A DNA stretch of 32,154 nt from Fibrobacter succinogenes (GTDB lineage Bacteria > Fibrobacterota > Fibrobacteria > Fibrobacterales > Fibrobacteraceae): contig CACWPM010000037.1 of NCBI GenBank assembly GCA_902762795.1, positions 1 through 32,154 of the forward strand. The letters run 5' to 3'. Each line of letters begins with the position of its first letter. The first letter of the stretch is position 1. Shown piece after piece: positions 2,883-28,077 of this stretch. Under the pieces are notes generated by a model. That model did not search any database. It saw only the letters and a list, made by a program, of their open reading frames with translations, and had not been told where the DNA came from. The position numbers were made by a program, and so were the translations under genes.

Positions 2883-4952
2883 ATGAAAAACAAAATCCTT
2901 TTAGCAGCATCCATCATCGGTTTATCGACACTTTACGGCTGTCTCGATGAGATAACCGAAGCTCCGGATATGTCCGAATTCGCATGTACAACAGAAACGC
3001 TAGACGACAATAGCGGAGTCAAGATTATCTGCGGAGGCGATTCCATAGGTGTTGTCCACAACGGCAAAGACGGTCGTGATGGTAAAGATGGCAAAAATGG
3101 AGTTGATGGGAAAAACGGCAAGGACGGAAATGACGGAGCTAAAGGAGACAAGGGCGAAAACGGCAGCCCAGGACAAAAAGGCGAAAAAGGCGATACCGGC
3201 TCTAAAGGAGAAAACGGATCATCTTGCTCGATTGTAGAGAACAAAGAAATCAACGGCTACGATGTTATCTGCGATAACAAAAAAGTAGGCGAACTGAAGA
3301 ACGGGAACGACGGAGTCAAAGGAGAAAGTGGCGACAAAGGTGCTACAGGCAAATCGGCTTACGAAGCTGCCGTATCAAAAGGCTTTACAGGCACTGAAGA
3401 GGAATGGTTAGCATCATTAAAAGGCGATGCCGGCACAAGCTGTTCCATCCAGGAAAACCAGGAAAAGGACGGCTACGACTTAAATTGCGGTGGCAAGGTT
3501 GTCACAATAACAAACGGAGAAAACGGGAAAGCCGGAAAGAGCGCTTTCGAAATCGCACAAGAAAAGAACACGGACCTGGGAAGCGTTGACGAATGGCTAG
3601 CTTCACTCAAAGGCGATGACTGCAAGGGAGAACAACTTGCTAACGGCAACATCAAGATCACTTGCGGTTCAAGTTTCGAGGCAGAGCTTGAAAAGGGCAA
3701 TGACGGCGCAAACTGCACCGTGAAAGAACGCACGGACGGAACCGGCTACGATCTGGATTGCAGCGGTGATGTTGTTACGGTAAAAAACGGAACGCAGGGC
3801 GATACAGGCAAGAGCGCCTTTGAAATCGCACAAGAAAAGAGCCCGAACCTCACCGAGGACGAATGGCTCGAATCATTAAAAGGCAAGGGATGCTCCGTAG
3901 CTAAGGTTACAGACGGCGTCCAAATCACTTGCGGCGACGACAATCCGGTAACCATCAAAAATGGCGAAAACGGCAAGAGCGCTTTCGAAATCGCACAAGA
4001 GAAGAACCCAAACATTACAGTTGACGAATGGCTCACCTCGCTCAAAGGCGAGGGATGCACTGCAAAAGAAGTCGAAAACGGCGTAGAAATCACCTGCGGC
4101 AATGGTACCCCGGTAACCGTCAAAAACGGTGAAAACGCCACAAACAAAGTCGAAGTTCTCAACGATGCGTGCAAAGCCCTCCGCTCTACGACAGATAAAT
4201 TCATACCCATATTCGATATTTTCTACTGCCTCCGTTCCAACGAAAAAGTGACCTTCATTCTCCGGCACGCGGCACGCGGTGATGATACCAGCGAAAGCGG
4301 TACACTAAGCACAATAGGCGAAAACCAATGTAAAGAAGTCGGCAGCAAGTTAAAAGAAATGAACCTTGAAGATTTCTCTTATATGCACACGAGATTTTAC
4401 CGTGCCAAGCAATCAGCATGGATTATCGCCCAAAACAAAGGTCAAGATGTAGGCAACCAAAATGCATGGTTTAACAGCGATGACACCGAAATCCAGATAA
4501 CAAACGACGACTTGCTAGACGGTTGGTATGTCCAAAATAAAGACGACAATCTCAAAAAAACATGCAAAGGCAACGTCAGTTCTGGTTGGGGCGCCTATTC
4601 AAGAGCGGCATACAAAGAATACGACAGCAACGATCAGAAAAAAGCCTGCGATGCATTTCTTTATGACATTGACCAAAAAACACAAGAAATCATCAAGAAG
4701 CATTTCACTTACGACAAAATGAAACCGGGAGTAACCTTAGCCATTTCGCACGACCAGTTCTTGGCTCCGTTCGTCATTTCCACCAGCAATCGCATGATAA
4801 GCGGTCCTGGCGGGCGTGATTTACGTTATCACAAATACGGCACTCAGGAGCATTGGATAAACTATCTCTCCGGCGTTGCCATCATCACGGATCCCGATGA
4901 CAACACAAAAATCATCCCCGCAACAGCACTAAGCAGCGGATTCTTGCAATAA
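2883..4952 (+). CDS. collagen-like repeat lipoprotein with C-terminal histidine-phosphatase domain
   Basis: This is a 689-residue predicted surface lipoprotein. Residues 1-20 form a lipoprotein signal ending LSTLYGC, with Cys20 as the lipidation site. From G61 there are about 18 uninterrupted collagen-type G-X-Y triplets (GKD GRD GKD GKN and so on). Then come four copies of a module beginning KSAYEAA or KSAFEIAQEK and ending EEWLASLKG or DEWLxSLKG (near 158-180, 219-243, 310-333 and 365-389). They are separated by Cys-containing blocks of the form GY-D-L-x-C-G-G followed by VTIKNG. The C-terminal 250 residues carry the histidine phosphatase motif ILRHAARGDD (R461-H462), HTRFYRAKQSA (from H502) and a second His in AISHDQF (H623). 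These match the phosphohistidine and acid-base residues of that superfamily. GGGAG-type SD at 2872-2876. A terminator follows at 4974. The substrate is unknown. Confidence 0.85.
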   Translation: MKNKILLAASIIGLSTLYGCLDEITEAPDMSEFACTTETLDDNSGVKIICGGDSIGVVHNGKDGRDGKDGKNGVDGKNGKDGNDGAKGDKGENGSPGQKGEKGDTGSKGENGSSCSIVENKEINGYDVICDNKKVGELKNGNDGVKGESGDKGATGKSAYEAAVSKGFTGTEEEWLASLKGDAGTSCSIQENQEKDGYDLNCGGKVVTITNGENGKAGKSAFEIAQEKNTDLGSVDEWLASLKGDDCKGEQLANGNIKITCGSSFEAELEKGNDGANCTVKERTDGTGYDLDCSGDVVTVKNGTQGDTGKSAFEIAQEKSPNLTEDEWLESLKGKGCSVAKVTDGVQITCGDDNPVTIKNGENGKSAFEIAQEKNPNITVDEWLTSLKGEGCTAKEVENGVEITCGNGTPVTVKNGENATNKVEVLNDACKALRSTTDKFIPIFDIFYCLRSNEKVTFILRHAARGDDTSESGTLSTIGENQCKEVGSKLKEMNLEDFSYMHTRFYRAKQSAWIIAQNKGQDVGNQNAWFNSDDTEIQITNDDLLDGWYVQNKDDNLKKTCKGNVSSGWGAYSRAAYKEYDSNDQKKACDAFLYDIDQKTQEIIKKHFTYDKMKPGVTLAISHDQFLAPFVISTSNRMISGPGGRDLRYHKYGTQEHWINYLSGVAIITDPDDNTKIIPATALSSGFLQ

Positions 4953-5045: not shown

Positions 5046-6362
5046 ATGAAAAAATCGCTCATTCTAATCACCGCATTTATCACGGCATCAGCCGCATTCG
5101 GCCAAAACGCAAAATCCACCGGCGTCACCAAAGAAGACGTGCAGAGTTGGATCAAAAACCAAAAGCAAATCGAGCAGAGCCTTAATGAGGCCGGTATTTC
5201 TCGCGATAACATCGCAGACGCTGGCAAGCAAGAGAAAGCAAAAGCGGAGTCCATCCTCCAGAAATATGGCATCACCGCGCCAAACAGCATCGAAAAATAC
5301 GCCATGATAAACCAATGCGCCACTCTCGTTCTGGCCGAAAACGGAGCCGGTTCAGGCATAGATCCGAATACGATGGCGATGCTAAAGAAGATGAATGTCG
5401 ATCCCTTCGCCGAACTGAGAGCAAACACCAATCAGAAAGATTGCAAGGTTGTAAAGGCGAACGAAAAAGCTATCGTCAACTTGATGAATGAAATGGATCA
5501 GACAAATGCAGGCCGCGCAAGTGCATCCGCACACCAAACAGCAAATACTGTAACGCCCTCTGCATCAAGCGCCACCAAAAGCGGCGGAGCCAAAAGCAAA
5601 GACGCCGCCTACGCACAAGCAGAACAAATGCGAATCGCAAATCCTGAAATGACCGAAGAAATGGTCGAATAAATGGCACAAAAAATCAGACACCAGCCCG
5701 GATACGCCATGCAGCAAGCCGTATGGGCAAAGCAACAACAGGGCCTCGCAAACGAAACACAAGAAAGCGCCCAAGACGACGTTGCGCAATTCAAGGAACT
5801 CAACGAAAAAGCGATCAAAGTCAAAAACGCCATCGACGAATTTTCCAAGAGCAAAGGCGACTGCGGATTCATTTACAAAAACGCCGACAAAACAGCCAAA
5901 GCATACACCAAGAAAGAACCGGCCAGTTGGGAAAGCTTGATGATCCATGTTCAAGACAACGTTGTGCTATTCCTCCCCGTAACAACAAAAGGCAAAGTCG
6001 AGTTCAAGTTCACCTGGGAAGAACCTGAATTAAAGAAAGTTGCCGTCGACATCCCCGACTATGCCGCATCCGATGTCGAGACGACCGAAATGAGCAAGAC
6101 AGTCCCTGCCACCATCATTTACTTAAATCGCAAGCGCAGGAAATTTATAAGCGAGACAGTCCCTGTCACCATCACAAACATCGAGATGTACGAAGCATCT
6201 GACAAGAACAGCACTGCAAGAGAGTACGTCATCTCGACAAAAGAAGGAAAGGTAATCCACCTCTGGCAGAAATGGAGCGGGGATAATTGGACCACGAAAG
6301 TCAACTTCAACGGATTGAAAGACGCTTCTACCTGGAAGTGGGGCGAAACCGGCGGAAACTAG
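5046..6362 (+). pseudogene. secreted protein of unknown function, split by an in-frame TAA at 5670-5672
   Basis: Two open frames, 5046-5672 (208 codons) and 5673-6362 (229 codons), are in the same phase and separated only by one TAA. Around the stop the sequence reads EEMVE, stop, MAQKIRHQPGYAMQQ, a continuous charged helix-like run. A CAA or CAG to TAA/TAG-type change of a Gln codon is the simplest explanation. The joined product would have 438 positions. The start at 5046 gives a clean signal peptide (MKKSLILITAFITASAAFG); the ATG at 5022 only adds residues in front of it. The first half is Lys/Gln-rich and helical, with an Ala/Ser/Thr-rich stretch near its end. The second half is β-rich at its C-terminus. 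TAAATG places a start codon right after the stop, so the second half could be re-initiated, but without a signal peptide. No family is recognised. No terminator follows. Confidence 0.75.
6094..6174 (+). repeat. 24-bp imperfect direct repeat inside the split gene
   Basis: GCAAGACAGTCCCTGCCACC at 6094 recurs as GCGAGACAGTCCCTGTCACC at 6151, each followed by ATCA. The offset is 57 bp (19 codons), so the frame is kept and the peptide KTVPATI recurs as ETVPVTI. It may be the trace of an internal duplication. Confidence 0.6.
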
Positions 6363-6427
6363 CGCCTCTTTGCCCATCCTGTTTTATAGCCCCCGAATTT
6401 AATCAATTTCAGAAACAGCAACACCGA

Positions 6428-6712
6428 GCCGTACCTATAAACAGAGCATTTTCCACTATTTATAGGTACGGCACAATCGTAATACAAGCTACCGTACCTA
6501 TAAATCACCCAAATACATCTTTTTATAGGTACATTTTTCATGTTAGCAAACAAACTAACAACATAATTCAATCTTTTTTCTTTAAAACGTACCTATAAAA
6601 ACAACAATCTCTCATTTTTATAGGTACGTTTATTCTCAACAACATCATTTTTCTCAGCATCAACACACCATTCGTACCTATAAAAAACAACTTCAACAAA
6701 ATTTATAGGTAC
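6428..6712. repeat. array of four inverted-repeat pairs of GTACCTATAAA with constant 17-bp spacing
   Basis: Eight copies of the 11-mer GTACCTATAAA occur in four head-to-head pairs: 6431/6459, 6494/6522, 6589/6617 and 6674/6702 (first bases of the arms). Within each pair the distance between arm starts is exactly 28 bp. The 17-bp loops have unrelated sequences, and three of the four lack G on the plus strand. Pair 1 extends to a 14-bp stem (GCC/GGC outside) and pair 3 to about 16 bp. Gaps between pairs vary (24, 56 and 46 bp). A minor hairpin TGTTAG/CTAACA sits at 6541-6560. The rest of the 6363-6872 spacer holds no gene. The array could be a set of protein-binding sites or a run of RNA stem-loops. 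Confidence 0.9.
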
Positions 6713-6872
6713 ACCTCTTCAACAGAACGCCCAAACCAAGCTCCAAACGCATTTAAAACAGTTCAAAGCGTAACAAACTGGCTTCCCGAAATTTTTCAAA
6801 CGCGATTACCTCGCATATTTTCTGAAAAGCTGATAACTGTTGTTTGCAAAATGAACACGCTATTCCAAAATG

Positions 6873-6902
6873 CTTGCTTTTACAGCAAGTTCATTGTATA
6901 TT
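6873..6902 (+). promoter_or_regulatory. sigma70-type promoter with overlapping palindromic operator, upstream of the PD-(D/E)XK gene
   Basis: A -35 TTGCTT (6874-6879) is separated by 17 bases from a -10 TATATT (6897-6902). A perfect inverted repeat CTTGCT-N5-AGCAAG (6873-6889) covers the -35 box, as expected of a repressor site. The start point would be near 6909, upstream of an AGAAGGGG ribosome-binding site at about 6913-6920. Confidence 0.75.
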
Positions 6903-6928
6903 GCCTTCACCAAGAAGGGGAAATCATT

Positions 6929-7750
6929 ATGCAGAAAAAACAAGAACACACCCACACTCCGTTAGACGCATTGACAAGCCTCGCGCAAACTCAGCAAGCA
7001 GAGCTGCTACAATTGTTATCACTACTACCCAAGTCAAAAGCCATCGTCGGAAACCTGCGAATAGACCGATGCAGGAATTCCTTCCAATACTACATCGTAT
7101 CAGAGCACGGCGATACGAAAGGCAATTACATTCCCCGCAAAGAAATCCGCAAAGCCGTAGCAATTGCACAACGCGATTACAACAAAGCCACGGCGACGAT
7201 TCTCAAAAAACAAATCAAAGCAATTGACTCGTTCCTCGCAATTTACACCCCAAACGCAATCGACGACGCATACACAAAGCTCCACCCAGGTCGCCGCGCG
7301 CTCATCACTCCCGTTCGGGAACCTGACGAAGATTTTATCGCCGCATGGCGTCACCTCCCCTACACCGGCAAACCATTTGAAATCAATGCCCCCGAGTATT
7401 ACACGGCAAGCGGTGTGCGCGTCCGATCCAAATCCGAGGTCATCATTGCAGACGCACTCACCCGCGCAAACATCCCCTACCGCTACGAATACCCTACAAG
7501 CATCAAAGGCTGGGGAACGCTCTATCCAGACTTCACCTGCCTCGACATTCGCACCCGCGAAGAAATCATCTGGGAGCACTTCGGCCTCATGGGCGACCCT
7601 GACTACGCCGAGAACGCCGTTCAGAAAATCACGCACTATGCAGCGAGTGGCTATGTTCTCGGCAAGAACCTCATCGCCACATTCGAAAGCGGCACAACCC
7701 CGCTTTCCGTCAAGCAAGCGCAAGGATGCATCGACGCACTTTTCAAATAA
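6929..7750 (+). CDS. PD-(D/E)XK nuclease-like protein
   Basis: This is a 273-residue soluble protein, probably a restriction-endonuclease-fold nuclease. I chose the ATG at 6929 because AGAAGGGG lies just before it. The longer frame from 6851 would read through a strong promoter. The C-terminal half contains RSKSEVIIADALTRANIPY, then LYPDFT, then IIWEHFGLMGDPDYA. This fits the E...(Y/P)D...ExH pattern of a PD-(D/E)XK core, and conserved bacterial hypothetical proteins share the SKSE / YPDF / WEHFG signature. The N-terminal half is helical, with Lys/Gln-rich segments. It is preceded by the GTACCTATAAA array and followed 36 bp later by a small membrane-protein gene on the same strand. A role in defence or DNA processing is an inference from the fold only. 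Confidence 0.75.
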   Translation: MQKKQEHTHTPLDALTSLAQTQQAELLQLLSLLPKSKAIVGNLRIDRCRNSFQYYIVSEHGDTKGNYIPRKEIRKAVAIAQRDYNKATATILKKQIKAIDSFLAIYTPNAIDDAYTKLHPGRRALITPVREPDEDFIAAWRHLPYTGKPFEINAPEYYTASGVRVRSKSEVIIADALTRANIPYRYEYPTSIKGWGTLYPDFTCLDIRTREEIIWEHFGLMGDPDYAENAVQKITHYAASGYVLGKNLIATFESGTTPLSVKQAQGCIDALFK

Positions 7751-8458: not shown

Positions 8459-8558
8459 GTTGCACCTTCCTGGTGCACGGCCCGGCGGCTCGGCCATGGG
8501 CTTTCAAGCAAGCTCGATGGCCGCGGCTCTCGCTTCAACGACTCGTTAATACGAGTCG
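8459..8558 (-). repeat. GC-rich structured spacer with a degenerate copy of the 3'-UTR element
   Basis: GGCTCG (8487-8492), GCCATG, an inner AGC-AA-GCT turn, the 7-mer CGCGGCT (8522-8528) and CTCGCT (8529-8534) appear in the same order and nearly the same spacing as the elements at 15440, 29361 and 29483. The outer 6-bp stem is missing. Instead there are two independent hairpins: TGCACC/GGTGCA (8461-8477) and CGACTCGT-TAAT-ACGAGTCG (8539-8558). The region lies 3' of moxR in its sense direction. Confidence 0.5.
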
Positions 8559-8599
8559 CTCCAGCTCACGAACACGACCGCAACGTTCGCATCCGGCAA

Positions 8600-9968: not shown

Positions 9969-10634
9969 TTATGTTGACGACTCTCCACTCATAAAAGCAT
10001 AATTTATCATAAAATAAAAACGATTTCGCGGTTCACCAATTTCACGCCCATAACGAAATTCAACGGAAAAGCCTTCATATGTCAAATAAGCACCTACACC
10101 AAACTCACCATATTCGTATGTAGAAGGAATACCCAAGCCACCACAATTTTCGTCAACAGTATAAGCATTTCTTGAAATATGCTCACTGGCACCAACCCTT
10201 AGATTATCGTAAATTGGAAACTCTTCTATCAACATCAAGCCACCAGAAAAAGGCATAGCATTTTTATCATGTCCTTTTTCTGCAGACCCTATACCAGCCC
10301 ATCCCTGCACTCCAATATATTGACTCCGTCCACCAAAAATAGTTCTCAAAGAGATATTTTCAAAAGAAAAACCAAATACACCATGGTCCAAACGAAATAA
10401 AAGGGATAAATCTAAATTTGCAGAACCCTCCTCATCAATATAATCTACATCAATATGAGAACGACCGCTATAAATATCCCCAGCTCTAGCACTACCACCA
10501 ACACCAAGGGCCACTCCAAATTTGTTTTCATTAATCTTCACATTCATGAACTGCGCAGCTGAAGGCGGATGACTTGAGCACCCCGCAAGCATCATCGCCA
10601 CAAGCAAAACAACAAAATAAGCCAACCGATTCAT
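9969..10634 (-). CDS. lipoprotein paralog 1 (SSHPPSAAQFMNV family), probable outer-membrane β-rich protein
   Basis: This 221-residue predicted lipoprotein has a signal ending MMLAGC (Cys at about 19). The mature protein starts SSHPPSAAQFMNV. It alternates short β-strand-like segments rich in Gly, Tyr and Phe. Near its end is FSVEFRYGREIGEPRNRFYFMINYAF, a long amphipathic pair of strands (described here, not listed as a motif database hit). It is clearly homologous to the products at 10668 and 14493. The final aromatic strand suggests a small β-barrel or surface sheet (inference). It follows paralog 2 on the same strand with only a 33-bp gap, which nevertheless contains its own promoter. Function is unknown; the family looks restricted and locally duplicated. 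Confidence 0.8.
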   Translation of the reverse strand: MNRLAYFVVLLVAMMLAGCSSHPPSAAQFMNVKINENKFGVALGVGGSARAGDIYSGRSHIDVDYIDEEGSANLDLSLLFRLDHGVFGFSFENISLRTIFGGRSQYIGVQGWAGIGSAEKGHDKNAMPFSGGLMLIEEFPIYDNLRVGASEHISRNAYTVDENCGGLGIPSTYEYGEFGVGAYLTYEGFSVEFRYGREIGEPRNRFYFMINYAFMSGESST

Positions 10635-10641
10635 TACGTAT

Positions 10642-10671
10642 AAAATACACTTTAATTTAAAAATTCATCAA
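10642..10671 (-). promoter_or_regulatory. promoter of lipoprotein paralog 1 in a 33-bp gap
   Basis: On the minus strand, -35 TTGATG (10666-10671) is 18 bases from -10 TATTTT (10642-10647). The ATG follows seven bases after the -10 box, so the mRNA would be leaderless or nearly so. The -35 box contains the TGA stop of the upstream paralog. Confidence 0.5.
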
Positions 10672-11327
10672 TGCGATTGCGCATCAAACATCACGCTAAA
10701 ATCAAGATAAAAGCGTTGGTTATCAGAACCAAGTTCATTCCCGTAACGGAATTCTAAAGAATAATCATCATAACTGATATACGCCCCTACACCGAGTTCC
10801 TTATAGAATTTCACATAATAATCCAAATTTATTGAGCAACATTCATCAAGCACCCCAGAATAAGAATTGTGTGCAAAAAATTGACTCACACCCACTTTAA
10901 ATTTCGAGGTAATAGGATACTGTTCAATCGTCATAATTCCAAATGGACGCTTCCAATTCGTTGAGCTATCATCGTTAAGAACAATAACATCGCCCCATCC
11001 CTGAACACCAAAATAATCACTAACAAAGCCCAGCATAAAACGGGGGAAAGGATGTTCTCCTAAACTAAAACCAAATGAAAAATGGTCGTTTCTAAAAAAG
11101 AGCGCCCCATCTAGTAAAAAACGAGGTTCCTTATATCGGTAAGCTTCCTGAGCACTTCTTTCTTCACGGTGAGAATTGTCATCGCCCCAAAAACCTCCAC
11201 CGCCAAAACCCATATAAATAGAATTCGGTTTTGCACTCATAAAACGAGCTGCCGACGGTGCATGAGAACTGCACCCCGCAAGCACAAAGGCAACAAACAA
11301 AACAAGCAAAGAAAATCTATTACACAT
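10668..11327 (-). CDS. lipoprotein paralog 2 (SSHAPSAARFMSA)
   Basis: This 219-residue predicted lipoprotein has the signal MCNRFSLLVLFVAFVLAGC. The mature protein begins SSHAPSAARFMSAK. Shared with paralogs 1 and 3 are the N-terminal SSHxPSAAxFM block, the central G-W-G strand (YFGVQGWGD), the EQYPI segment and the closing YSLEFRYGNELGSDNQRFY. It is the most divergent of the three, with a Cys-Cys pair (DECCS) in place of the DENCGG loop. The start ATG follows TATTTTATAATTA on the minus strand, again a -10-like element right at the start codon. The upstream DNA (about 11345-11402) resembles that of paralog 3, which indicates duplication of gene plus promoter. Function is unknown. Confidence 0.8.
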   Translation of the reverse strand: MCNRFSLLVLFVAFVLAGCSSHAPSAARFMSAKPNSIYMGFGGGGFWGDDNSHREERSAQEAYRYKEPRFLLDGALFFRNDHFSFGFSLGEHPFPRFMLGFVSDYFGVQGWGDVIVLNDDSSTNWKRPFGIMTIEQYPITSKFKVGVSQFFAHNSYSGVLDECCSINLDYYVKFYKELGVGAYISYDDYSLEFRYGNELGSDNQRFYLDFSVMFDAQSH

Positions 11328-12657: not shown

Positions 12658-13068
12658 CTACGAAGGATTTTCTTCCAATTCACGAATCTTTTCTTTCATC
12701 GTATTCGAAAATTTTTCAAATTCAGCAATATAAGATTCATAAATACGAGCAAGAACATTTTTAAAGGCTTTTTCATCATACACATGGGACGCAGAATTTC
12801 TATCACGAAGCATCGAGAGCCAGACTACTTCATCATCCAAAAAACTGAATTTAAAACCTGCTCTAAGAATTTCACGAGGAGACCCATTTTCAGCTTCGGC
12901 TATAGCATGAGCACGCATTACCTCTTGTAAAGTTTTCCACAGCAGTTTAAAGATTAAGCGAAACTGACTTATGACCCCGGTCCTATAAATTTCATCAGAC
13001 GAAGCCAATTCTCTATTAGAATTTTTTAGCACCCGAAAACTCTTTAAAAAATTATCAAACTTTTGCAT
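12658..13068 (-). CDS. HEPN-domain protein, HI0074-type nucleotidyltransferase partner (probable toxin)
   Basis: This 136-residue helical protein is of the nucleotidyltransferase substrate-binding (HI0074) type. I chose the Met at 13068 (MQKFDNFLKSF), which matches the usual start of the family; the frame is open to 13092. The core motif is NGSPREILRAGFK (from residue 61), and DRNSASHVYDE (from 89) contains R90-x4-H95, the HEPN RX4-6H ribonuclease-type motif. It overlaps the MNT gene by 14 bp (13055-13068), the typical tight coupling of these pairs. In studied HEPN/MNT pairs the HEPN protein is an RNase toxin that the MNT partner inactivates by adenylylation. Whether that applies here is inferred from motifs. 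Confidence 0.88.
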   Translation of the reverse strand: MQKFDNFLKSFRVLKNSNRELASSDEIYRTGVISQFRLIFKLLWKTLQEVMRAHAIAEAENGSPREILRAGFKFSFLDDEVVWLSMLRDRNSASHVYDEKAFKNVLARIYESYIAEFEKFSNTMKEKIRELEENPS

Positions 13069-13339
13069 AAAGAAGCTTTCCCTCCCTAGCAATAGATTCT
13101 CTTAACTTATCTGAGATAATTTCATCTAAATTAACAACATCAAAGGTCAAAAGAGTATCTGCTTGTTCTTCAAGAAGTTCTTCATAGCGATAAATGTCAA
13201 AACCCGAAACAGCAAGATCAACATCACTACGCTCACGATTCGTACCGCGAGCTCGAGAACCAAATAGAATAACCTTATTCAGAAAGCAATCCTTTGCAAA
13301 CTTTCGAATCTGATTCTGTATGTCTATAGATAGGTTCAT
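13055..13339 (-). CDS. MNT-type minimal nucleotidyltransferase (probable antitoxin)
   Basis: This 94-residue protein of the DNA polymerase β-like fold has the motif GSRARGTNRERSDVDLAV. G-S and D-x-D are the catalytic residues, with a third Asp in LLTFDVVNLDE. The Met at 13339 is preceded by GGTGA on the minus strand and is preferred over the Met at 13348. A good promoter lies upstream (13362-13390). It overlaps the HEPN gene downstream and forms a two-gene toxin-antitoxin-like unit, with the TfoX-N gene as a possible third member. By analogy with characterised pairs it would transfer AMP to the HEPN toxin. Confidence 0.9.
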   Translation of the reverse strand: MNLSIDIQNQIRKFAKDCFLNKVILFGSRARGTNRERSDVDLAVSGFDIYRYEELLEEQADTLLTFDVVNLDEIISDKLRESIAREGKLLYAKV

Positions 13340-13361
13340 ATTCACCATGCCATTTCTTTTT

Positions 13362-13444: not shown

Positions 13445-14503
13445 TTATTTCTTTTTCAGCATTTTCGCACACGGCTTTTCGACAAATTCATGCAACGCAA
13501 TAGCCATAAGCGTACAAAGCGTCACCGACACCGCAATTTGCAGCACGTTATTTTGAATACCGCACGCAGCAAACAACCAATTTTCAATTTCAGTATTGAA
13601 TGTCTGCGCCAAGAAAAACGCATAACTCGCCGCGCTCGCATACCGCAGCACAGAAGACCCCTGTAACCGTGGAGACTTGAGACCCGCCAGCGTTAAAATC
13701 ATGCAAGCAAACAACGGAACAGCAATCCAGTCGTAAAGCATGTAATTGCCCACGAAAATATTCAGCCGCACGGCAATCGAAATCCCTGCAACTAAAAGCA
13801 AAACTTCAACAAGCAAGGCTTTCCACGTCGCAATCCATTTTGCGACGCTATCCGTCACCGGCAATGAGCACAACAGCACCCCGATAAAAAATTCAAGACC
13901 TCGGAAAAATGGATTGGAATAAATCGAGTCCGTCTTGAACGTGTGCACGACAAGCGGCGACCAGAACAAAACCGCAACACAAACGGCAAGAGCAATCCAC
14001 TTCGTGCGAGTCGTCATCATCTTCACCACTTCTTGCATCAGCGGAAACGCCAAGTACGCAAACAGCAAGCAAGAGATAAACCATGTTCCGCCATTATGGC
14101 TCACCGGGAACAATGTCGAAAATACACTCTGCAATCCCAAGACTTCAATCGGCAACAGCACCAGATTCTGGAACGATGATTCTTGCCCCAGCGTCACGAC
14201 GTACAACATAGCCACGACCAAGTACAAAGGAAAAATTCCAAAGACGCGTTTCAGGTAAAAGTTCTTGAGTGATGGAGCCTGCACAAGCGACTTGTCCTTG
14301 TACGTCAAGAACAGCACATAGCCCGAAAGCATAAAGAACGCCGTCATAAACACGGCACCCATCGAGACAAATCCCGTAAACGCTCCAAAATCATTTCCAT
14401 GGTGAATATTGCAATGGAACAGCAACACCATCACGGCTGCCACAACGCGAAACAAGTCGAGTCCTGCCACACGATGAGAAATTTTCTTTTCATCAATAAT
14501 CAT
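13445..14503 (-). CDS. acyltransferase family 3 membrane protein
   Basis: This is a multi-spanning inner-membrane O-acyltransferase (OafA/NolL type, 352 residues from the chosen start). Such proteins transfer acetyl or other acyl groups to surface sugars. The N-terminus RVAGLDLFRVVAAVMVLLFHC holds the conserved His (H30), followed by FFMLSGYVLF and about ten hydrophobic segments. The start MIIDEKK at 14503 is preferred because it leaves an 11-bp overlap with the upstream lipoprotein gene; the longer start at 14551 would overlap by 59 bp. It is probably co-transcribed with lipoprotein paralog 3 and translationally coupled to it. No glycosyltransferases are adjacent, so the acyl acceptor cannot be guessed. 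Confidence 0.85.
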   Translation of the reverse strand: MIIDEKKISHRVAGLDLFRVVAAVMVLLFHCNIHHGNDFGAFTGFVSMGAVFMTAFFMLSGYVLFLTYKDKSLVQAPSLKNFYLKRVFGIFPLYLVVAMLYVVTLGQESSFQNLVLLPIEVLGLQSVFSTLFPVSHNGGTWFISCLLFAYLAFPLMQEVVKMMTTRTKWIALAVCVAVLFWSPLVVHTFKTDSIYSNPFFRGLEFFIGVLLCSLPVTDSVAKWIATWKALLVEVLLLVAGISIAVRLNIFVGNYMLYDWIAVPLFACMILTLAGLKSPRLQGSSVLRYASAASYAFFLAQTFNTEIENWLFAACGIQNNVLQIAVSVTLCTLMAIALHEFVEKPCAKMLKKK

Positions 14504-15200
14504 TATACAACTCAAAATCCGACGTAATTTTATCTTTTGCCCTAAAAGCATAGTTTAACATAAAATAAAAGCGATTTCGTGGTTCGCCAATTTCGCGACC
14601 GTAACGGAATTCAATGGAAAATCCCTTGTAAGTTAAATATGTTCCTATACCATATTCATTATAATAATCAGAAGAAGAACAATCTATTCCTTCATTTATC
14701 TGATCAACCTGGTAAGCGTTATGTGAAATATGTTCACTCAGCCCAACTTTTAAATTTTCATTTATGGGATATTCTTCAATTAACATCAAGCCACCATAAG
14801 ATGCCGATTTGTCAGGAAAAAAAGACTTTAACGCCAAACCTCCCCAACTTTGCAATCCAATATACCGACTAACAAAACCCAAAACTCCTCTATGCGAAAG
14901 GTTTTCCACAGAAAAACCAACAATTAAATGATTATATCTAAACAAAAAAGACAAATCTAAATTTCCATAAAATTCCGCACCTTCGTAATCATCCCATTGT
15001 ATAGATTCTCCATCAACATGCTCTTTATAAATATCACCAGCACGAAGCGAGCTACCAATAATAAAACTAGTCCCCATTTTATTTCTTTTTTCATGCACAT
15101 TCATAAACTGCGCGGCAGAAGGCGGATGGCTGGAACACCCCGCTAAAAGCAAGAGCGAGGCGGCAACGCAAAAAACAAGCGAGCAAAACTTCCGAATCAT
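14493..15200 (-). CDS. lipoprotein paralog 3 (SSHPPSAAQFMNV family)
   Basis: This 235-residue predicted lipoprotein has a signal ending LLLLAGC. The mature N-terminus SSHPPSAAQFMNVHEK is almost the same as in paralog 1, as are GLMLIEEYPI, SEHISHNAYQVD, and FSIEFRYGREIGEPRNRFYFMLNYAF. It has a longer C-terminal tail (RAKDKITSDFELYNDY), whose coding sequence overlaps the start of the acyltransferase gene. Paralogs 1 and 3 are thus closer to each other than to paralog 2, although 1 and 2 are adjacent. The upstream region (AAATGCAA, AGC, TTCGTC and then ATCAGAATTTT) resembles that of paralog 2. Function is unknown. Confidence 0.82.
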   Translation of the reverse strand: MIRKFCSLVFCVAASLLLLAGCSSHPPSAAQFMNVHEKRNKMGTSFIIGSSLRAGDIYKEHVDGESIQWDDYEGAEFYGNLDLSFLFRYNHLIVGFSVENLSHRGVLGFVSRYIGLQSWGGLALKSFFPDKSASYGGLMLIEEYPINENLKVGLSEHISHNAYQVDQINEGIDCSSSDYYNEYGIGTYLTYKGFSIEFRYGREIGEPRNRFYFMLNYAFRAKDKITSDFELYNDY

Positions 15201-24156: not shown

Positions 24157-25941
24157 TTAATCAAGTCTGATAAAGGCGTAACCGAGATAGACCTTTTCGC
24201 TTGAAGAACGGTTTGCACGGCGCTTGATCTTAACCGTAAACGAACCTGCCGAAGGAGCCACGAAATCGACAACTTCAAACGGATTGTATACAGATTCCGA
24301 TTTTGCAATGGTAGAGCCATTCTGCACAATGCTCAAGTCGATATTCTGAGCAAGCCCCTGGTTGTTCAAAGCGTATTGGCCAGAAGTCAACCAAGCAATG
24401 GCAAGACGATAGCGCTTACCTTTCTTGATATCGTATTCCGTAAAGGAAATCTCATTATTCGAATTGAAATTGCTCTTGTTTTCACCCTGCCAGAAGCGCC
24501 AGCGATAGGATTCGCCCCAAGTCAGGACGGAATAATGAGGAATACCCGCCAAGAAAGTGTTCTTGCCGTCAACATCATAATCAGGGTTTTTAACAGGCTT
24601 GCTACCTGCGATCAAGACAGCCTTGACAACTTCCGGATGCCACCACAAGAACTGATGCTGTGACATCATCGTTGCGGTCATGCCAGCCATGAACGGAGTC
24701 GCCGCACTCGTCCCATTGAAAGTGCCATTATAGGTATCATTGGCACCTGCCGTGAAAGAAGGGTCGCCCGGGAAACGGAAGCTCGTGTAGTTAGCAACTT
24801 CAGGCTTGTCACTTTTCGTACCAACATTCTTAGACGATGAATACGAAACATACATGTCGTCTACCGGAGAGACGGCACCGACAGAAATGGCATTCAAGGC
24901 TCTCCCTGGAGCTCCTACATAGGCGTTTCTGCCACCGTTACCGGCAGCAACGAATTCAACAACTTTATTCGTATAAATAAAGTTATCCATATCGGCATCT
25001 CCCGAAGTATAGCCCGTATTGTCCGTGACAAAGCCCCAAGACTGCGAGCCAACCATGATCGGATAGGAATAGTTACGCACATTCTGCGGGTAGTTCACGC
25101 CATCAATGCCATAGATCATCGCCTGTGGAGCGGTTGTCTGCAAAATTCTTGTGACACCAATAACATGCGTTCCATAGCCCGGGCAAGACCCAATGCGAGT
25201 ATAGAACGTCCTATTCACGTAGTTAAGCGGAGGGCATCCGCCTTCATTGTAATAAACGCCTACACCCTGGCCCATATAACCGTTATTATGCGCATAATCT
25301 GTAATTTCCGATCTTTTCAGAATATACGTGTAATCGCGGTAATCCTGGGCACCATACGAAAGGGCCGGCTGCGGTTCCTTATATTCGGAAATATACTTGG
25401 TCTCGCTGCTTGCAATTTCCTTTTCGATTTCGCTTGCCGTAAGGTATGCAACACGAGGCGCATTGAAGGATTTGCTAAAGCTATCGTATTTCTTTTCGCG
25501 CTTTTCAGCTTCAGAAAGATAGCTGGTTTCGCTCACCTTGGAACCGTTCAACCAGAACGCCTTTTGATTTGTTTTCGGATCGAATTCGTAACGTCCGCTA
25601 ACGGTTGCCAACGGAGCGTCGTCAACCTTGACATCACTAATAACGACCTTCATTTTTTCAACGCCAGAAGCATTAATTTCGTAGTTGAGAGCGCCTTTCT
25701 GCGCGCCTCCACGGCGACCCAAGACGTCCGCTTTCACCGAGACTTTGCGCTTCAGCTTATTGGCTTTTTGTTTTTCAACGAATTTCTGAACGCTCTTGTC
25801 CATTCGTGAGGGCGCCGACGAAACTTCATCCGTCAATTTCACTTCGTCAGACGAAACGTCATCAGAAGCTGTATTTGCATAAGCAGCGGAACCTCCTACA
25901 AGAACCGCCATTGCTGTCAATGCCAGCATTTTTTTATTCAT
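24157..25941 (-). CDS. subtilisin-like (S8) secreted protein, paralog A, with altered catalytic Asp motif
   Basis: This 594-residue exported protein has the signal peptide MNKKMLALTAMAVLVGGSAAYA. The pro-like region (25-200) holds a conserved RMDKSVQKFVEKQK helix and ADVLGRRGGA. The S8-type domain (about 205-450) contains THVIGV (H259), VVEFVAAGNGG (oxyanion N335) and NGTSAATPFMAG (nucleophile S412). Where subtilases have D-T/S-G or D-G-G, this protein has VGVYYNEGGC (N232-E233-G-G). The classical Asp is therefore replaced, possibly by Glu. A β-rich C-terminal domain (about 480-594) ends YLGYAFIRLD. Two Cys (236, 253) may form a disulfide beside the active site. It is homologous along its whole length to the gene at 26293. 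TAGGAGT precedes the start. The target is unknown. Confidence 0.85.
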   Translation of the reverse strand: MNKKMLALTAMAVLVGGSAAYANTASDDVSSDEVKLTDEVSSAPSRMDKSVQKFVEKQKANKLKRKVSVKADVLGRRGGAQKGALNYEINASGVEKMKVVISDVKVDDAPLATVSGRYEFDPKTNQKAFWLNGSKVSETSYLSEAEKREKKYDSFSKSFNAPRVAYLTASEIEKEIASSETKYISEYKEPQPALSYGAQDYRDYTYILKRSEITDYAHNNGYMGQGVGVYYNEGGCPPLNYVNRTFYTRIGSCPGYGTHVIGVTRILQTTAPQAMIYGIDGVNYPQNVRNYSYPIMVGSQSWGFVTDNTGYTSGDADMDNFIYTNKVVEFVAAGNGGRNAYVGAPGRALNAISVGAVSPVDDMYVSYSSSKNVGTKSDKPEVANYTSFRFPGDPSFTAGANDTYNGTFNGTSAATPFMAGMTATMMSQHQFLWWHPEVVKAVLIAGSKPVKNPDYDVDGKNTFLAGIPHYSVLTWGESYRWRFWQGENKSNFNSNNEISFTEYDIKKGKRYRLAIAWLTSGQYALNNQGLAQNIDLSIVQNGSTIAKSESVYNPFEVVDFVAPSAGSFTVKIKRRANRSSSEKVYLGYAFIRLD

Positions 25942-26292: not shown

Positions 26293-28077
26293 CTAATCCT
26301 TCGACACAAACGCATATCCAAGAGCAACATTTTCACTCGAGGAACTATTCGAATAACGTTTAATCTTAATCGTCAACGGGCTAGAAGAACGGGCTACAAA
26401 TTGAACAAGTTCAAATGGGTTGTTCGCCGATTCCGAAGTCGCAATCATTACACCATCTTGCCAAACGCTCAAGTCGATATCCTGAGCAATGCTTTGGTAA
26501 CGAACCGCAAACTCGCCCGTAGTCAGCCAGGAAATGGCGATACGGTAGCGTTTACCCTTATGGATATCATATTCCGGGAACGTAATTTCTCTCTTGGAAT
26601 CAAACCAAGATGAGTTTTCGCCTTCCCAGAAGCGCCAGCGATAAGAGTCCGTCCATGAGAAGTTGGAATAATGCGGAATGCCCGCCTCAAATTCGTCAAC
26701 CCCGTCAGCATCGTAATCAGGATTTTGAATCGGATTACTGCCGGCAATCAAGACAGCCTTGACAACTTCAGGATGCCACCACAGGAACTGGTGCTGAGAA
26801 AGCAAATCCGCAGTCATGGCTGCCGCAAACGGAGTCGCCCCGCTCGTGCAACAGAAGGTTCCGTCATAAGTGTCACCCGGGCCTGCCGTGTACGAAGGAT
26901 CCGGGAAACGGAAATGAGAATAAGCGCCCAATTCGGGCTTGTCGTTTCCAGGACCCGGATTTTTAGAAGTCGAATACCCCATAAACATATCATCCGCCGG
27001 AGACACGGCACCAACAGTGATTGCATTGAACGCCCTAGCCGGAGGAGGAATGACCGCATTCCGGCCTTCGTTGCCAGCGGCAATAAATTCAACCACTCTA
27101 TTTTCATAGATGTAGTTATCCAGCGTGGCATCAGTACCTTCGTATCGCGAGAAATCAGAACCATAGCTCCAAGAATTCGAACCGATCAAAATCGGCACAT
27201 CATAGCTCGCCGGATTTTCAGGGCCATCGGTACCCTGCAATCCATAGAGCTTCGCCTGTGGAGCTGTCGTCTGCAAGATTCTCACAACGCCGATCGCATG
27301 CGTCGAATATTCGTCACAAGGCGTTTCCAACTGTTCATAATAATTTGTATTCACATACTGCAGCGGGACGCACCCGCCTTCATTGTAATGGACGCCCACA
27401 CCCTGCCCCTTAATGGACAAGCTATGTGCGTAGTCCGTAACACCGGACTTTTTCAGTATATAGCGGTAGTCCCAAGATCCTTCTTGGCCGTACATGACCT
27501 GCGGTTTCGGCTTTCGGTATTCCGAGATGTACTTGGTTTCGCTACTTGCAAGTTCTTTCTCGATTTCGCTCGCCGTAAGGTACGCAACACGAGAAGACTT
27601 AAAGGATTTCTTAGAGCGGTCATATTTCTGTTTGCGTTTTTTCGCCTGATCCAAGTAACTGGACTCGCTAACTTTGGAACCGTTCAGCCAGAATTCCTTC
27701 TGTTCCATTTTCGGCCTATATTCATAACGGCCGCTAACGGCAGGCAAAGGCGTCTTGTCTACACGGACATCGCTCACGACGACTTTCATTTTTTGGACAT
27801 CGGAAGCGTTGACTTCGTAATTCAACGCAGCCTTGCCCTTGAGGGCTCCACCGCGGCGACCGAGCACGTCTGAAGAAACTGAAACACTGCGTTTTTGACC
27901 GTTCTTCTTTTGCGCTTCAACAAATTTCTGAACATTCTTGTCCATACGGGATTCGCCCACCTCGTCGGCCTGTTCGTCTTCCATAGGCTGAATGTTTTTA
28001 GAAATCGGCTTTGCATAAGAAGCGGCCCCTCCTACAAGCACCGCCAATGTCGTTACTGCCAGTAATTTTTTATTCAT
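26293..28077 (-). CDS. subtilisin-like (S8) secreted protein, paralog B, with altered catalytic Asp motif
   Basis: This 594-residue protein is the same length as paralog A and collinear with it. The signal peptide is MNKKLLAVTTLAVLVGGAASYA. Shared blocks include RMDKNVQKFVEAQKK, VLGRRGGA, KVSESSYL, RVAYLTASEIEKELASSETKY (split here for length: the core is LTASEIEKE) and HQFLWWHPEVVKAVLIAGS. The S8 residues are STHAIGV (H260), VEFIAAGNEG (N336) and CCTSGATPF (S412); the usual Gly before Thr-Ser is replaced by Cys. The Asp motif is again replaced: VGVHYNEGGC. Cys at 236 and 254 are kept. The gene carries its own promoter region and terminator, so the two paralogs are separate transcription units. 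Active protease, altered specificity or a non-catalytic scaffold are all possible. Confidence 0.85.
   Translation of the reverse strand: MNKKLLAVTTLAVLVGGAASYAKPISKNIQPMEDEQADEVGESRMDKNVQKFVEAQKKNGQKRSVSVSSDVLGRRGGALKGKAALNYEVNASDVQKMKVVVSDVRVDKTPLPAVSGRYEYRPKMEQKEFWLNGSKVSESSYLDQAKKRKQKYDRSKKSFKSSRVAYLTASEIEKELASSETKYISEYRKPKPQVMYGQEGSWDYRYILKKSGVTDYAHSLSIKGQGVGVHYNEGGCVPLQYVNTNYYEQLETPCDEYSTHAIGVVRILQTTAPQAKLYGLQGTDGPENPASYDVPILIGSNSWSYGSDFSRYEGTDATLDNYIYENRVVEFIAAGNEGRNAVIPPPARAFNAITVGAVSPADDMFMGYSTSKNPGPGNDKPELGAYSHFRFPDPSYTAGPGDTYDGTFCCTSGATPFAAAMTADLLSQHQFLWWHPEVVKAVLIAGSNPIQNPDYDADGVDEFEAGIPHYSNFSWTDSYRWRFWEGENSSWFDSKREITFPEYDIHKGKRYRIAISWLTTGEFAVRYQSIAQDIDLSVWQDGVMIATSESANNPFELVQFVARSSSPLTIKIKRYSNSSSSENVALGYAFVSKD

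Follow-up and report, generated by a model that had tools for sequence, protein, structure and literature searches.

The window analysed here, the whole stretch of 32,154 nucleotides from Fibrobacter succinogenes, carries an intergenic array of inverted 11-bp arms upstream of a gene for a nuclease-like protein. Such arrays recur in genomes of rumen Fibrobacter: their palindromes lie whole turns of the DNA helix apart, their arms are under purifying selection, and they are linked to homologues of this gene, with gene types and arm types co-varying. We read the arrays as phased platforms for the protein encoded beside them, within a self-spreading, specificity-switching family of genes and arrays, and we give this reading a probability of about 0.6.

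Palindrome spacing is quantised to the DNA helix

The array in the window consists of four palindromes, GTACCTATAAA-N17-TTTATAGGTAC, at 6431-6712. The features are:

6363-6928, no strand: intergenic region that contains the array and, presumably, the promoter of the nuclease-like gene (from the list of open reading frames)
6431-6469, no strand: palindrome 1, GTACCTATAAA-N17-TTTATAGGTAC (exact match)
6494-6532, no strand: palindrome 2, 63 bp (6 helical turns) past palindrome 1
6589-6627, no strand: palindrome 3, 95 bp (9 turns) past palindrome 2
6674-6712, no strand: palindrome 4, 85 bp (8 turns) past palindrome 3
6929-7750, plus strand: PD-(D/E)XK/EDxHD-like protein of 273 aa (from sequence, AlphaFold2 model, homologue conservation and fold matches)

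The exact 11-mer occurs eight times in the window, always inside the array, on the plus strand at 6431-6441, 6494-6504, 6589-6599 and 6674-6684 and on the minus strand at 6459-6469, 6522-6532, 6617-6627 and 6702-6712. With up to two mismatches, 15 matches were found in the window compared to 4.5 expected, and this number was reached in 0 of 100 shuffles. An earlier note on this DNA had described four inverted pairs with arm starts 28 bp apart, which is true of all four; the offset it called invariant is so in this array, but is 28 or 29 bp across the GTACCTATAAA arm family. It had also placed the array 160-445 bp upstream of the gene, whereas the true position is 216-498 bp upstream of the ATG at 6929. 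The absence of G that it noticed on the plus strand of the loops holds for three of the four window loops and is not a property of the array family. A search of the intergenic region (6363-6928) for sigma-70-like promoter or terminator matches found none. Within the open reading frame upstream of the array there is a 28-bp direct repeat (89%) at 6090-6117 and 6147-6174.

The pair-to-pair distances had been taken to vary freely, but the 63, 95 and 85 bp of the window correspond to 6, 9 and 8 helical turns, stepping by one turn. The same holds throughout the genome of this window, a Fibrobacter assembly of 3.93 Mb (G000). Here the exact 11-mer occurs 85 times, all within intergenic arrays that form about 15 clusters, and exact pairs are separated by N17 (24 pairs) or N18 (9 pairs) only, in a search that allowed N2 to N32. 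When mismatches were allowed, 15 arrays of three or four palindromes each were found. Measured from centre to centre, their distances are all 61-63.5, 74-75, 84-85.5 or 94-96.5 bp, except for a single 167.5 bp; these correspond to 6, 7, 8, 9 and 16 turns. The best period for these 39 distances was 10.65 bp (R 0.88, phase about zero), and 0 of 20,000 uniform draws were as strong; the result was unchanged in a reduced set that kept one representative of related arrays. Dozens of arrays with other, non-GTACC arms behaved similarly (92 distances, R 0.93, phase about 0 at 10.55 bp; 0 of 20,000 null draws). Further arm families also form dispersed arrays in G000.

Changes in spacing follow the same rule. 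Nine of the 15 G000 arrays are homologous along their linkers, and the spacing changes among them are insertions of about 10 or 22 bp, that is, one or two turns. One orthologous array in two species (L043 and L030) differs in spacing by one turn (85 vs 95 bp). Loop centres are A/T-rich, at about 80-90% in the middle positions. The earlier suggestion that the geometry is constrained, as it would be for a dimer or tetramer on two half-sites, is supported.

Arms are under purifying selection

Selection on the arms is evident even at arrays distant from any gene. Orthologous arrays were 97.1% identical in their arms, compared to 84.1% in loops, 83.2% in linkers and 76.2% in flanks (790 of 814 identical in arms vs 1594 of 1908 in loops and linkers; Fisher p 2e-27). 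In G006, 13 dispersed arrays share a geometry of 6, 13 and 6 turns (64/136/63 bp), and once the arms are masked only 2 of the 91 pairs of these arrays show similarity. The core bases of the arm, ACCTATAA, are almost invariant, and mismatches gather at the two outermost positions and the innermost one.

Arm mismatches were one-sided in 112 cases and two-sided in 15, of which 4 were still complementary. Because the mismatches are one-sided, and uncompensated, RNA hairpins with an 11-bp stem and a 17-nt loop (as in small RNAs or at sites of transcript processing, for instance), which the earlier note had raised and which perfect arms would be able to form by pairing, are scarcely credible. Helical phasing between palindromes also argues against them, and Rfam gave no match above chance.

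The arrays could instead be operators, by which the protein or some other regulator controls neighbouring genes and its own gene. Phased operators with looping are well known, and the gene-linked array sits in the upstream intergenic region at most loci. However, the 26 gene-less arrays of G000 and G080 lie in 11 convergent, 12 co-directional and 3 divergent intergenic regions; these solo arrays avoid promoters rather than marking them, and the genes flanking them are unrelated. We consider operators improbable.

Decay of arrays in genomes that lack a cognate gene was also considered. The proportion of perfect arms, 41% in G006 compared to 79-93% in four close gene-bearing genomes, was suggestive, but the idea is undercut by G080, which bears a gene and has 50%.

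Gene and array are linked and their types co-vary

The ATG at 6929 is preceded by a ribosome-site-like aaggggaa. AlphaFold2 (pLDDT 90.4) predicts for the 273-aa protein an N-terminal helix, a beta-hairpin (residues 42-57) and a long helix, followed by a nuclease-like domain (about 150-273). E170, E216 and H217 are invariant across 47 homologues, and D201 is conserved in at least 90%. The modelled nuclease domain is similar to I-Bth0305I, Bax1 and TnsA, with weak matches at Z of about 8, the best in VIA being 3r3p (Z 8.5); a Foldseek search with the model gave no match at E<0.001. Sequence searches found no relatives in the PDB and no Pfam family at E<1, and NCBIfam and PHROG were likewise empty. 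In PADLOC, residues 158-271 alone matched PDC-S68 (profile positions 1101-1218 of 1221), so that only the last domain, and not the full-length multidomain protein of about 1200 aa, is matched. The phylum search found full-length relatives only in Fibrobacter and in a second genus of its family; another genus gave a partial match. Neither the exact palindromes nor relatives of the gene family were found in IMG/VR, and plasmids and phages gave matches to the C-terminal domain only, besides one faecal scaffold (MT839528, 33% identity) with no array.

Since the genes beside the other G000 arrays are unrelated, this gene was first taken as a chance neighbour, an explanation that was rejected once the flanks of homologous loci were examined. 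One or more homologues are present in 49 of 80 Fibrobacter genomes and absent from 31, many of the genomes being metagenome assemblies and some incomplete or contaminated; locus L083 lies at a contig end. The flanks of the homologues carry arrays of like geometry with other arms (TTACATACTAA, GGGGCGTATAAA, GGGGCATATAAA, ATGCATATAAA, TTACGTACTAA, ATAGGACTAAA, TGGGTACCAAA and more). Throughout, an automatic detector picked the best arm per locus, and a locus was counted as positive at a score of at least 45. An array adjoined the gene in 57 of 70 homologous Fibrobacter loci (36-100% identity), leaving 13 (about a fifth) with no clear array, and in 13 of 20 held-out loci, with none clear at the other 7. 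One held-out positive is from another genus, with TTGCTTATAAA four times at 84/85/85 bp. No Markov-2 control window reached a score of 38 (0 of 280), and 14 of 300 random G000 windows scored at least 45, about what genuine arrays in that DNA would give. Thus, the association with homologues of the 6929 gene, which the earlier note had proposed, is real. Its alternative of a generic repeat, with scattered pairs, variable spacing and no link to this gene family, describes the scatter of the arrays correctly, but fails on the quantised spacing and on the strong link to the gene.

Arrays with TTACATACTAA arms (at least three palindromes) occurred in 10 of 12 genomes with a TTACATACTAA-linked gene vs 4 of 68 others (Fisher 3.6e-8), and GTACCTATAAA (at least eight palindromes) in 6 of 7 genomes with the matching gene type vs 1 of 73 others (Fisher 1.6e-7); arm types were those assigned by the detector, and the genome counts ignore phylogeny. 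Some genomes have arrays with no cognate gene detected (G006, G099 and G017 for GTACCTATAAA; G019, G072, G093 and G097 for TTACATACTAA). The single exception to the GTACCTATAAA co-variation is G006, which encodes a chimeric protein (L063). Beyond about residue 85 the chimera is near-identical to the window protein, but its N-terminus is like that of L072, which is of the TTACATACTAA type, and the arms of its own array are TTACATACTAA, so that N-terminus and array have both been swapped. The same genome holds 34 TTACATACTAA palindromes and a few GTACC arrays. As N-terminus and array are physically adjacent, one crossover would move both regardless of function. The chimera, the unrelated linkers and the several types found in a single genome all speak against simple shared descent. 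Downstream of the chimeric gene lies an extra partial 3' end of the nuclease-like gene (L144, G006:C83 ~136788-136901), possibly a footprint of the recombination that made the chimera.

The beta-hairpin matches arm type even in diverged proteins: D[KR]CR goes with GTACC, NH with TTACATACTAA, [CS]HNS with TTACGTACTAA and HK with GGGGC arms. In a partial rank correlation with arm similarity, given the nuclease domain, the N-terminal half peaked at residues 41-58 (0.275, 0 of 500 permutations). Because segment 223-231 of the nuclease domain correlates as highly, we treat the hairpin as a candidate arm reader. We consider cognate binding of the array by the gene product very probable.

Turnover, proposed mechanism and known systems

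Array positions turn over. G000, G097, G019 and G072 have array positions in common, whereas none of the 13 G080 arrays has flanks in common with a G000 array, the gene-linked site excepted. The orthologous site in G006 and G001 lacks one G000 array (L041), a difference seen as presence or absence, the intergenic DNA being too diverged to define ends. The window gene adjoins a MoxR gene, and in other species the same site holds homologues with different arms. In eight genomes the site has neither gene nor array; no solo array is left there, and excision in the manner of solo LTRs was rejected for this site.

At least 10 loci have the gene between direct repeats, each containing array sequence, that are mostly about 240-310 bp long and 70-95% identical; the window locus has an array upstream of the gene only. 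These array-bearing repeats would be consistent with arrays serving as places of integration or recombination. Neither target-site duplications nor terminal inverted repeats nor excised forms were found, and no instance of homing was seen. At one shared intergenic site, G006 has a TTACATACTAA array (L257) where G000 (L046) and other species have a GTACCTATAAA array, and the linkers are unrelated. This suggests preferred sites for arrays. It also speaks against point-by-point rewriting of dispersed arrays in place after a switch of specificity, at this single shared site; for the other G006 arrays, the G000 sequence that was examined offered no equivalent.

In G071, about 88% identity marks several arrays as copies. 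Such copies, the linker sequence common to nine G000 arrays and the dispersed intergenic positions would suit inert miniature mobile elements (MITE- or REP-like scars) with the gene as a passenger. We find this very unlikely, since arms are under selection where the rest drifts freely, geometry is retained without sequence similarity, and gene type matches arm type. The strong conservation of solo arrays is likewise unexpected for inert selfish scars.

We propose instead that the protein encoded alongside each array uses it as a platform of double-stranded DNA. A dimer would sit on each 39-40 bp palindrome, its N-terminal domain reading the two 11-bp half-sites, probably by the beta-hairpin (residues 42-57). 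With a whole number of helical turns between palindromes, three to six dimers would lie on one face of the DNA and could contact each other. Such contacts may fold the array into one complex, positioning or restraining the C-terminal nuclease domains. Gene and array would together make up a self-spreading, specificity-switching family, of which the dispersed arrays would be gene-less members, much as in RAYT/REP systems.

Whether spread is the main function is a separate matter, and we put a chiefly selfish or homing-like role at even odds. A host role, in defence or chromosome structure, is kept in play because solo arrays are clearly maintained. The adjacent product would then bind arrays in place, as a docked defence nuclease or as part of a nucleoid-organising or segregation system, with spread incidental. 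Arms and spacing are long conserved at solo arrays, the distantly related G000 and G080 have similar array numbers (about 13-15), and the C-terminal domain also ends the large candidate phage-defence proteins PDC-S68. Positions, however, turn over between species, a given chromosomal site sees rapid change of both gene type and arm sequence, and almost two-fifths of the Fibrobacter genomes (31 of 80) lack the gene, so that we hold a host function to be possible but doubtful.

Among known systems, RAYT (TnpA-REP)/REP/REPIN REPtrons likewise have a single nuclease-type gene beside cognate palindromic repeats (PMC3116915, PMC8266576), with gene-less repeat copies in extragenic DNA, co-evolution of repeat and protein, and several types per genome. 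Cognate palindromes both flank the gene and are dispersed in intergenic DNA in Fibrobacter too. RAYTs, however, are HUH proteins whose substrates are single-stranded hairpins, and their REPs, of about 20-60 bp, number in the hundreds (PMC3116915, PMC8266576), whereas the Fibrobacter system has a PD-(D/E)XK/EDxHD-like protein and about 15 arrays per genome, each of 200-300 bp with three to six helix-phased palindromes. No HUH/Y1 transposase domain was found in the profile searches above, the modelled nuclease domain resembling PD-(D/E)XK-type folds, and the palindromes lack the compensatory stem changes of a folded single-stranded hairpin. As both the HUH protein and the single-stranded hairpin are missing, the Fibrobacter system is not a member of the RAYT-REP group.

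The closest fold match of the nuclease domain is the EDxHD homing endonuclease I-Bth0305I (Z 8.5 over 89 residues, weak), for which dimerisation on a target of almost 60 bp has been described (PMC3943268). Unlike the targets of EDxHD homing endonucleases, the Fibrobacter array appears to stay intact beside the gene and not to be split, and no sequence similarity was found. To our knowledge, neither phased arrays of several target sites nor dispersed target arrays without a gene have been described for these enzymes. TnsA of Tn7 is another weak match in the PD-(D/E)XK endonuclease fold (Z 8.0, 114 residues), and Tn7 ends also carry several protein-binding sites. Unlike in Tn7, no TnsB- or TnsC-like partner was present among the neighbouring genes examined in the window, neither terminal inverted repeats nor target duplications were found, and, unlike in TnsA, the nuclease domain is C-terminal.

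For phage immunity repressors that act at stoperators, the site sequence differs between repressor lineages. Here too one protein would have many sites across a genome, but stoperators are single asymmetric sites on phage genomes, the repressor is not a nuclease, and there are no phased arrays (PMC9283540, PMC6550527). As to restriction-modification, no methyltransferase domain was found in the scanned window neighbours, and neighbours vary between species. CRISPR does not fit the inverted 11-bp arms with stepwise helical spacing, and no cas genes were found among the scanned neighbours. A search of open-licence papers yielded no description of such a gene and array system. Together, arrays and gene family point to an undescribed protein-DNA system. 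On balance we favour a new kind of genetic element, in which a PD-(D/E)XK/EDxHD-like protein assembles on helically phased arrays and switches recognition by N-terminal exchange, with arrays rebuilt genome-wide for each specificity.

If so, the system would be an independent double-strand-DNA counterpart of RAYT-REP, built on an unrelated nuclease, and a clear example from nature of helical phasing between protein-binding sites being under selection. Its dozens of natural protein/site pairs would allow a recognition code to be derived for an unstudied DNA-reading hairpin, and it would become testable how a sequence-specific protein changes its target yet keeps matching sites genome-wide.

The window has several other features. 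Beside the MoxR gene, a stretch of 45-65 bp with CGACTCGTTAATACGAGTCG (8526-8590) has matches at many positions in most of the Fibrobacter genomes searched, and has the look of a short dispersed repeat in its own right. Three similar predicted lipoproteins (with CSSHPPSAAQFMN and variants) lie close together at 9969-10634, 10668-11327 and 14493-15200; the two that were scanned had no Pfam match. A secreted protein with collagen-like Gly-rich repeats, encoded at 2883-4952, ends in a phosphatase-like region (RHAARG), and its gene contains a 165-bp tandem repeat at 3807-4137. At 12658-13348, a nucleotidyltransferase (Polbeta/MNT-like) gene stands beside a 144-aa gene in a layout like that of MNT-HEPN toxin-antitoxin pairs. 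Tandem paralogous subtilase-family (S8) proteins, both of 594 aa, are encoded at 24157-25941 and 26293-28077.
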